Below are positions 46,031 to 52,242 of a stretch of DNA of 64,000 nucleotides, piece by piece. Positions within the stretch are counted from its first letter, which is position 1. Each line of letters begins with the position of its first letter. Made by a program: the position numbers and the translations under genes. The notes under the pieces were generated by a model that made no database searches, was not told the DNA's origin, and saw only the letters and a program-made list of their open reading frames with translations. This DNA comes from Thermococcus gammatolerans EJ3 (GTDB lineage Archaea; Methanobacteriota_B; Thermococci; Thermococcales; Thermococcaceae), in contig NC_012804.1 of NCBI RefSeq assembly GCF_000022365.1, positions 248,001 to 312,000 on the forward strand, in the 5' to 3' direction.

Positions 46031-46133
46031 CTTAATCTTGAAATTTATAAAGGAAATTTCCTTCATATTCGATTGCTCAATGAAAAGGCTTATGAGACCT
46101 TGAGCCCAGGTGGGTAGCTGAAGATATGGTGGG

Positions 46134-46182
46134 ATGATGAGTCTGGAGCCCCCTGATCTGTGAAGAGGTTTCGCGGGGCTGA
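46134..46182 (+). ncRNA. C/D-box sRNA (2'-O-methylation guide)
   Basis: C box ATGATGA (46134-46140), 12-nt guide GTCTGGAGCCCC, D' box CTGA (46153-46156), spacer TCT, C' box GTGAAGA (46160-46166), 12-nt guide GGTTTCGCGGGG, D box CTGA (46179-46182). All four boxes and the 12/3/12 spacing are as in archaeal dual guides; GG before C and CC after D give a short closing stem. By the N+5 rule the methylated bases would be the C in GGGGCUCCAGAC and the G in CCCCGCGAAACC. The sRNA ends five bases before the ATG of the next gene. Confidence 0.85.
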
Positions 46183-46187
46183 CCGGC

Positions 46188-46484
46188 ATGATAAAACGGC
46201 GTCTCTGTCGAGAGTACATAGAGGAGATCGAGAGGCTCGAACGTTCGATTCGCGAGCTTGAAGAGGAGATAATAGAGCTCAGAATGCAGCTCAAAAGGAA
46301 GACGGAAGAGGTTACAAGTCTTAGCATTGAGAACACGAGCCTCAGGTATAAGATAGAACTCCTTGAGAGGAGGGAGAAACAGATAATCGAGTTCCTGAAA
46401 AAGCTCAAGATACCGTTTGTAATAGTTCAGGAAGAGGGGCTTGAGGATCCCGATTCTGGCCAGAACTGTGGAGAAAAACCTTAA
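46188..46484 (+). CDS. Short coiled-coil protein
   Basis: 98 residues. Basic start (MIKRRLCREY), then a continuous coiled coil of about residues 10-72 with leucines at heptad spacing (ERLERSIRELEEEIIELRMQ), then KKLKIPFVIVQEEG. Not recognised. No convincing RBS: the C/D sRNA occupies the preceding 50 bp, so expression may be by a shared transcript, with sRNA processing separating or destroying the mRNA 5' end. Coding likelihood rests on the regular heptads. Confidence 0.6.
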   Translation: MIKRRLCREYIEEIERLERSIRELEEEIIELRMQLKRKTEEVTSLSIENTSLRYKIELLERREKQIIEFLKKLKIPFVIVQEEGLEDPDSGQNCGEKP

Positions 46485-46527: not shown

Positions 46528-49269
46528 ATGGGCATGGACATGACCACGAGAATGTTTAAAGAGGAAGGCTGGGTAAGGAAGAAGTGCCCTAAGTGCGGTA
46601 AATACTTCTGGACGCTTGACCCGGACAGGGAAACCTGTGGCGACCCGCCGTGTGACGAGTACGGGTTCATAGGAAAGCCTGGCATACCGAAGAAGTACAC
46701 CCTTGACGAGATGCGCGAGAAGTTCCTGAGCTTCTTTGAGAAGCACGGCCACGGAAGGGTCAAGCGCTACCCGGTTCTTCCGCGCTGGAGAGACGATGTC
46801 CTCCTCGTTGGAGCGAGTATAATGGACTTCCAGCCCTGGGTAATCAGCGGTGAGGCCGACCCTCCAGCCAACCCGCTCACCATAAGCCAGCCCTCGATTC
46901 GCTTCACCGACATAGACAACGTCGGAATCACGGGCAGGCACTTTACGATTTTCGAGATGATGGCCCACCACGCCTTCAACTACCCGGGGAAGCCGATTTA
47001 CTGGATGGACGAGACCGTTGAGCTCGCCTTCGAGTTCTTCACGAAGGAACTGAAAATGAAGCCAGAGGACATTACCTTCAAGGAGAACCCCTGGGCGGGC
47101 GGTGGGAACGCGGGCCCGGCCTTTGAGGTGCTCTATCGCGGTCTGGAAGTGGCAACGCTCGTCTTCATGCAGTACAAGAAGGCCCCAGAAAACGCCGACC
47201 CGAGCCAGGTGGTCGAGATAAAGGGAGACTACTACGTCCCGATGGAGACGAAGGTTGTCGATACCGGCTACGGTCTTGAGAGGCTCGTCTGGATGAGCCA
47301 CGGCACGCCCACCGCTTACGACGCCGTCCTCGGCTACGTCATCGAACCGCTCAAGAAGATGGCGGGCGTTGAAAAGATAGATGAGAGAATTCTGATGGAG
47401 AACTCCCGCCTCGCTGGAATGTTTGACATCGAGGACATGGGTGACCTGCGCTACCTCCGCGAGCAGGTTGCCAAGCGCGTTGGAATAACCGTCGAGGAGC
47501 TTGAGAAGGCTGTTAGGCCCTACGAGCTCATCTACGCGATAGCCGACCACACCAAGGCCTTAACTTTCATGCTCGCCGACGGCGTAATCCCGTCCAACGT
47601 CAAGGCCGGCTACCTCGCGAGGCTCCTCATAAGGAAGAGCATAAGACATCTGAGGGAGCTCGGCCTCGAAGTTCCGCTCGCTGAAATCGTCGCGATGCAC
47701 ATAAAGGAGCTCTCGCCGACGTTCCCAGAGTTCAAGGAGATGGAGGATGTTATCCTCGACATAATCAACGTTGAAGAGAAGCGCTACCACGAGACCCTCA
47801 AGAGGGGAAGCGACCTCGTCAGGAGAGAGATAGCGAAGCTCAAGAAGAAGGGCATAAACGAGCTTCCGCTCGAAAAGCTCATCCTCTTCTACGAGAGCCA
47901 CGGCCTTACCCCTGAGATAGTGGCGGAAGTGGCTCAGAAGGAGGGCATAAAGGTCGAGATTCCCGACAACTTCTACACGCTCGTGGCTAAACAGGCCGAG
48001 AAGACCGAGAAGAAGACCGTCGCTGAGTATGTAGTGGACTTCGAACTCGTTAAGGACTTACCCGAGACGAGGACGCTCTACTACGAGGACCCCTTCATGA
48101 AGGAGTTCGATGCAGAAGTCGTTAAGGTCATAGACGACTGGGTCGTGCTCAACCAGACGGCCTTCTACCCCGAAGGTGGCGGTCAGCCCTACGACACCGG
48201 AACGCTCGAGGTTGATGGGGAAGAAGTCAGGGTTACGAACGTCCAGAAGGTCGGGAAGGTAATCCTCCACCGCGTTGATAAACCGGAGCTCTTCAAGAAA
48301 GGTGCCAAAGTTCATGGGAAGCTCGACTGGGACAGGAGGATACAGCACATGCGCCACCACACGGGAACGCACGTCCTCATGGGCGCGCTCGTCAGGGTCT
48401 TAGGAAAGCACGTCTGGCAAGCTGGAAGTCAGCTCCACACCGACTGGGCCAGGCTGGACATCTCCCACTACAAGCGCATAACCGAGGAGGAACTCAGGGA
48501 AATTGAGAGGCTCGCCAACCGCGTCGTCATGGAGAACAGGAAGGTGACCTGGGAGTGGCTTCCGAGGACTGAAGCGGAGATGAAGTACGGCTTCCGCCTT
48601 TATCAGGGCGGCGTCGTTCCCGGAAGAACGATAAGGGTCGTTAAAATAGAGGACTGGGACGTCCAGGCCTGCGGTGGAACGCACCTGCCGAACACAGGTT
48701 TAATCGGCCCGATTAAGATTCTGCGGACCGAGCGCATACAGGATGGCGTTGAGAGGATAATCTTCGCGGCGGGAGAAGCGGCAATCGACTGGATGCAGGA
48801 GACCGAGAGGCTTCTCAAGAAGACCGCCGAAATCTTCCGCGTCCCGCCTGAGAAGGTGCCAGAGACGGCGGAGAGGTTCTTCAACGAGTGGAAGGAAGCA
48901 AGGAAAGAGGTCGAGAAGCTCAGGAAAGAGCTGGCAAAGCTTCTCGTCTACGAGCTGGAGAACAAGGTCGAGAAGGTTGGCGATATTGAGTTCATCGGAG
49001 CTGTGGTTGAGGGCACGATGAACGACCTCCGCGAGGCCGCCAACAGGCTCAGGAAGGAGAAGAGGGTTGTAGTCCTCATCAGCAGGGAGGGTCACTTTGT
49101 CGTTGCCGTTGGCGACGGCCTTGACCTTAAAGCGGGAGAGCTGGCGAAAATAATAACCTCCGTCGCCGGCGGTGGCGGTGGCGGAAGGAAAGAACTTGCC
49201 CAGGGCAGGATAAAGAACCCGCTGAAGGCAGAGGAGGCGATAGAGGAGGTCAAGAGGAGGCTCGGGTGA
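46528..49269 (+). CDS. alaS: Alanyl-tRNA synthetase (archaeal type)
   Basis: 913 residues. Archaeal N-terminal zinc segment ([12 protein letters not shown], then [10 protein letters not shown]), class II catalytic core ([42 protein letters not shown]), editing domain with HHTGTHVL and [10 protein letters not shown] zinc ligands, a coiled region and a C-terminal domain with the glycine-rich [16 protein letters not shown]. Start 46528 after GGGGTGAAGAG; GTG 46519 lies in the RBS. Confidence 0.97.
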
Positions 49270-51807: not shown

Positions 51808-51884
51808 GGGCCCGTGGTCTAGACGGTTATGACGCCACCCTTACAAGGTGGAGGTCCGGGGTTCGAATCCCCGCGGGCCCACCA
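51808..51884 (+). tRNA. tRNA-Val (anticodon TAC), CCA encoded
   Basis: Acceptor GGGCCCG pairs with CGGGCCC; anticodon stem GCCAC.../GGTGG with loop CTTACAA gives anticodon TAC (Val); T arm CGGGG-TTCGAAT-CCCCG. Discriminator A followed by genomic CCA. No intron. Confidence 0.95.
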
Positions 51885-52164: not shown

Positions 52165-52242
52165 TGGTGGACCGGGCGGGATTTGAACCCGCGGCCTCCG
52201 CCTTGCGAGGGCGGCGCTCGTACCAGGCTGAGCTACCGGCCC
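52165..52242 (-). tRNA. tRNA-Ala (anticodon CGC), CCA encoded
   Basis: Acceptor GGGCCGG pairs with CCGGTCC, giving the G3:U70 pair diagnostic of tRNA-Ala. Anticodon loop CTCGCAA gives CGC. T arm GCGGG-TTCAAAT-CCCGC. Genomic CCA at the 3' end. Minus-strand TATA TTTTTAAAG at about 52268-52276. Confidence 0.95.

Follow-up and report, generated by a model that had tools for sequence, protein, structure and literature searches.

A conserved C/D box sRNA, sR23, lies five nucleotides ahead of a coiled-coil protein gene in Thermococcus gammatolerans and most other Thermococcales

Introduction

Most archaeal C/D box sRNAs adjoin genes or sit inside them, and whether this reflects packing or regulation is at issue. 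The closest described case is Tko-sR50 of Thermococcus kodakarensis, which lies in the 5′-terminal region of the TK1565 transcript, ranked 18th by reads in one library (2014, PMC4247193). Tko-sR04/TK0108 and Tko-sR67/TK2284 are further abundant T. kodakarensis transcripts with a 5′-terminal C/D sRNA, and the T. kodakarensis authors raised cis-regulation for some 5′-terminal snoRNAs. Tko-sR50 corresponds to sR46 in the data of Liu et al. 2022 (PMC9014305), where a transcription start site (TSS) at 1371720 and a circle spanning 1371729–1371790 (±5) are listed, together with 176,232 small-RNA reads and 188 circular reads, the latter falling to 3 in an RNA-ligase knockout. A related class of 5′-overlapping C/D sRNAs, in which the start codon falls either within a guide or past box D, goes back to Tripp et al. 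2017 (reviewed in PMC7994747).

Both sR23, the Rfam family of Tko-sR50, and its position before the gene are already known from T. kodakarensis (Tko-sR50/TK1565, 2014). We add the conserved spacing of the pair, a candidate Shine–Dalgarno (SD) element within the guide and box D, and the location of the AUG inside the circle, the last obtained by combining the published coordinates with the sequence.

Results

An sR23 sRNA directly ahead of a protein start

We analysed a 64,000-nucleotide window of the T. gammatolerans genome, a single contig of 2.05 Mb from the same genus as T. kodakarensis. A C/D box sRNA had been predicted at 46134–46182, just 5′ of a protein start, with two 12-nt guides and exact or near-exact boxes. 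Each of these points is confirmed: the C, D′, C′ and D boxes and guides within the range of ~10–12 nt can be read directly from the sequence, the region matches RF01138 over the gathering cut-off (74.9 bits against 45, E 2.6e-16; cmscan, window 46132–46184, plus strand), and the family is found order-wide. The features of the locus are as follows.

46132–46184, plus strand: sR23 C/D box sRNA (RF01138), orthologue of Tko-sR50, located by cmscan
46134–46140, plus strand: box C, AUGAUGA, exact and conserved
46141–46152, plus strand: D′ guide, 12 nt, GTCTGGAGCCCC (as RNA GUCUGGAGCCCC)
46153–46156, plus strand: box D′, CTGA (CUGA), exact
46160–46166, plus strand: box C′, GTGAAGA (GUGAAGA), one change relative to RUGAUGA
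46167–46178, plus strand: D guide, 12 nt, GGTTTCGCGGGG (as RNA GGUUUCGCGGGG)
46179–46182, plus strand: box D, CTGA (CUGA), exact
46188–46484, plus strand: gene for a 98-aa coiled-coil protein, TK1565 orthologue, ATG 5 nt past box D
46528–49269, plus strand: alanyl-tRNA synthetase gene (alaS), downstream of the coiled-coil gene, with its own SD (AAGGGGTGAAGAGC-ATG)

Of 94 Thermococcales genomes, 90 have a detectable sR23, whereas 14 control genomes gave no match. Second, partial matches of 20–25 bits, covering model positions 2–41, occur in two genera (G004, G005, G006, G008, G010, G011, G086, G087, G089, G090 and G092); they lie away from the tRNA-Trp gene and may belong to a different C/D guide with a portion in common with sR23. 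At one locus (L022, G076:C5:113101-113152), sR23 joins directly onto the middle of the alaS reading frame (...GGGGCTGACTCCTGAAATCGTT...). The junction falls at a GCTGACTCCTGA stretch that is also present in alaS, pointing to recombination or an assembly chimera.

The downstream gene and its coupling to sR23

The five nucleotides between the end of box D and the ATG at 46188 read CCGGC. The coiled-coil ORF is a real gene under purifying selection, since it is single-copy in each genome that has it, retains 14 invariant columns among 32 diverse members and shows a median dN/dS of 0.15 (524 pairs). AlphaFold2 models the 98-aa protein as one helix (residues 2–72, mean pLDDT 86). Its sequence gave weak YabA-like and generic coiled-coil matches only, all of them under every cut-off, and no function is assigned to it. 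The UGA inside box C′ is a stop in frame with the ORF, and 71 of the 74 loci at which the two elements are coupled have an in-frame stop no more than 13 codons ahead of the start. Further along the window lie two tRNA genes on opposite strands (51808–51881, plus; 52168–52242, minus), with ~290 bases between them.

Of the 88 loci, 74 have an intact coiled-coil ORF behind sR23. These pairs keep a nearly fixed gap between box D and the start codon: 5 nt in 58, 6 nt in three and 4 nt in four, with 3 nt in eight (a GTG start, with an ATG 9 nt further on) and 20 nt in one. Because the upstream flanks of sR23 do not align across the order and only 61 of the 74 coupled loci have alaS next downstream, the pair is held together more tightly than its surroundings. 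All six genera show the coupled state, which is probably the ancestral one.

In eight genomes the gene is present without lying directly behind sR23 (G007, G009, G011, G029, G041, G067, G069 and G076). Six of these eight uncoupled copies have a clear SD of their own, and two have an AT-rich, TATA-like stretch near the start. Four of the uncoupled sRNAs (G029, G041, G067 and G069) carry a T-rich, terminator-like stretch right after box D. sR23 is also retained in G078, G087, G058 and G063, where the gene is broken or was not found. The link between the two is not essential, since the gene has been moved away or lost in several genomes.

The D′ guide is complementary to tRNA-Trp

Complements in rRNA or tRNA had been anticipated for the two guides. 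The D′ guide does have a complement in a tRNA, and the nucleotide at the methylation position is a C. Nucleotides 2–11 pair perfectly over 10 nt with GGGCUCCAGA of tRNA-Trp, and the fifth nucleotide from box D′, the position that defines the target under the N+5 rule, faces C32 (10/10). Within a set comprising 16S rRNA, 23S rRNA, 30 tRNAs and pre-tRNA-Trp, the guide core matches tRNA-Trp only; the organism's own 16S and 23S contain no perfect match. By chance, such a match is expected for 0.6% of random 10-mers and 1.5% of shuffled guides. Both partners are conserved: CGCGGGCTCCAGA is identical in 27 of 27 tRNA-Trp genes read, and the guide core is identical in nearly all of the 88 loci, with variation at guide nucleotides 1 and 12, as expected for positions outside the 10-bp duplex. 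This complementarity suggests that the D′ guide most likely directs 2′-O-methylation at C32 of tRNA-Trp(CCA), a predicted Cm32. In Pyrococcus furiosus, Cm32 of tRNA-Trp is listed as a predicted C/D target and was not detected (PMC7668247); our analysis names sR23 as the likely guide for this predicted modification.

The corresponding search with the D guide gave no firm complement in the rRNAs and tRNAs checked. The best candidates were 23S nucleotide 2111 and the 3′ strand of the tRNA-Trp anticodon stem. Against the first stand its one mismatch, at guide position 4 beside the target nucleotide, and Pyrococcus guides that do not fit the site. The second turns up in several lineages, at 7.5–8.5 of 10. 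The pre-tRNA-Trp intron has C/D-box-like elements and a C34 guide of its own (L132, G000:C1:about 117103-117250); its length differs between genera, and the anticodon arm is invariant.

A candidate Shine–Dalgarno element within the guide and box D

The end of the sRNA contains a sequence that resembles a ribosome-binding site, as judged from duplex energy and spacing.

46175–46182, plus strand: GGGG-CUGA, SD-like, made up of box D and the 4 D-guide nt that precede it; putative function

Pairing of GGGG-CUGA with the 16S tail GATCACCTCCT gives an anti-SD duplex of -8.0 kcal/mol, a score of a size reached at 10–14% of random places. The aligned spacing is 3 nt, and the mode among genes in the window is 3–4. 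Box D has other reasons to be constrained, and several uncoupled Thermococcus genomes retain GGGG as well. In the genus inferred to be Pyrococcus, four coupled loci have GGAG-CUGA, a better SD, and three uncoupled loci have GGGA or GGAT before box D. Across the whole set, the six coupled genomes in which the guide ends in GGGT have a GGTG instead, placed after box D at ~6 nt from the ATG. These comparisons are between genomes related to one another. Taken together, they are suggestive of GGGG-CUGA serving as the SD of the coiled-coil ORF.

The original prediction held that the sRNA occupies the place of the leader and thereby leaves no room for a ribosome-binding site. The first part stands, in that the sRNA does lie where the leader should be. 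The second is probably wrong: an SD-like element sits within the sRNA at the usual spacing, and a leaderless product of processing is therefore not needed to account for translation.

Candidate promoter and transcript

A promoter can be placed tentatively upstream of the sRNA.

46082–46096, plus strand: candidate BRE/TATA, gaaaaggcttatgag, a putative promoter recognized from its sequence

Its position predicts a TSS at ~46115–46119, with the sRNA starting ~15 nt into the transcript. Across the 88 loci, AT content is maximal 33–39 nt upstream of box C. The T. gammatolerans locus has the same-strand arrangement and 5-nt spacing of the 5′-UTR-embedded type represented by Tko-sR50/TK1565, for which co-transcription is published in T. 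kodakarensis only.

Published data for T. kodakarensis cover the shared transcript, where it starts and, to within ±5 nt, where the circle ends. We placed the coordinates listed by Liu et al. 2022 on the KOD1 genome, in which the other listed sRNAs fall on C/D boxes. From the TSS at 1371720 it is 11 nt to the start of the corresponding sRNA and 67 nt to the TK1565 ATG; leaderless mRNAs are those with a primary TSS at most 8 nt from the start codon. The circle ends ...CTGACCGGCATGA and takes in the TK1565 ATG (1371787–1371789). That data set pools circle junctions lying up to 5 nt apart, and the 3′ end could accordingly fall just before the AUG.

Discussion

We consider it reasonably likely that sR23 and the coiled-coil mRNA arise from one promoter as one transcript with two exclusive fates: assembly into a C/D sRNP or translation of the coiled-coil protein. 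A single promoter would give a transcript with sR23/Tko-sR50 in its 5′ part and the coiled-coil mRNA as the remainder. L7Ae, Nop5 and fibrillarin would assemble on the C/D and C′/D′ motifs, leading to trimming and often to circularization; the processed sR23 would then guide 2′-O-methylation, most likely at C32 of tRNA-Trp(CCA), and the downstream coding part would be lost. Where sRNP assembly fails, the intact transcript would be translatable, with GGGG-CUGA acting as the SD. On any one molecule the two fates would exclude each other, as the SD would be covered by the sRNP and the AUG would leave with the processed RNA. Since the T. kodakarensis circle, as listed (±5 nt), includes the TK1565 AUG, each transcript processed to sRNA should be lost as an mRNA. 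The same mapping supports the exclusivity of guide RNA and protein expression that had been proposed from the sequence, and one transcript molecule probably gives guide or protein, not both.

A different outcome would be that processing leaves a fragment starting at or just before the AUG, which is translated leaderless, such that both products come from one molecule. In most genomes the ATG comes only 3 nt after the CC closing the terminal stem, leaderless mRNAs make up about 14% of the total in T. kodakarensis, and two uncoupled Pyrococcus copies of the gene (G007 and G009) look leaderless. Nevertheless, the listed circle ends would usually remove the AUG, leaving at face value no start on the fragment; the unprocessed leader offers an SD-like element at normal spacing; and a processed 5′ end would differ from the primary 5′ end of a leaderless mRNA. 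This proposal, which formed part of the original prediction, has become less likely, and we regard it as unlikely. Alternatively, sR23 and the gene could be merely packed neighbours, with a strong sRNA promoter, weak read-through and a spacing that reflects few indels. C/D sRNAs often abut or overlap ORFs, doing so without the need for a promoter of their own, 5′ overlap reduces expression of the downstream gene, and several lineages have moved or lost the gene. Against this, the pair and its spacing are kept across six genera in which the upstream flank and, in part, the downstream neighbour change, the ORF is under purifying selection, and the separated gene copies have translation signals of their own, all of which makes simple packing quite improbable.

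The element might also act mainly in cis, as an L7Ae-responsive k-turn leader and not as a methylation guide. L7Ae binds 5′ UTR k-turns and, in Sulfolobus, covers the SD of the mRNA that encodes it (PMC5539422), and the cis-regulation raised by the T. kodakarensis authors for some 5′-terminal snoRNAs would fit such a role. The locus has the sequence elements of an L7Ae-repressed leader. However, there is almost no variation in the D′ guide core or in its tRNA-Trp target, the sRNA is kept where the gene has moved or gone, and the processed circular form is abundant in the listed T. kodakarensis reads, which together leave a purely cis-acting leader very improbable. We retain the reading of one transcript with two exclusive fates, in which sRNP assembly and translation would compete.

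A stronger proposal, which we put forward tentatively and hold to be doubtful, is that sR23 constitutes a Thermococcales-wide built-in switch between the methylation machinery and ribosomes, the same bases serving as guide and box D and as SD. Were this so, output of the protein would report free C/D sRNP capacity, perhaps tied to tRNA-Trp modification. Whatever the answer, the pair provides a clean test case for competition between sRNP assembly and translation on one RNA: it is ancient, has near-fixed spacing, carries an RBS-like sequence and, in the published circle data, has ends that cover the start codon, and it is present in the genetically tractable T. kodakarensis.

Among known systems, Rfam sR23 and Tko-sR50 with TK1565 share with our locus the RNA family, the downstream gene, the 5-nt spacing and, as predicted for T. 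gammatolerans, the position of the sRNA at the 5′ end of the transcript. The 5′-overlapping C/D sRNAs of Tripp et al. 2017 (reviewed in PMC7994747) likewise place an sRNA and the 5′ end of a gene on one transcript. In contrast to the sR23 pairing, which is old and order-wide, that class was described as rare (7%) and as lowering downstream expression. In L7Ae autoregulation, a protein bound to a 5′ UTR k-turn would mask an adjacent SD, as we propose here; the k-turn in the L7Ae leader is a simple cis element, whereas that of sR23 is part of a C/D sRNA that is cut out and acts in trans. Finally, the C/D guide in the tRNA-Trp intron, Pyrococcus sR50, also concerns methylation of the tRNA-Trp anticodon loop, at C34 and position 39. 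The names clash, Tko-sR50 being the sR23 orthologue, and both RNAs appear to act on tRNA-Trp, but Pyrococcus sR50 is intron-encoded, addresses other target nucleotides and is an RNA distinct from Tko-sR50.
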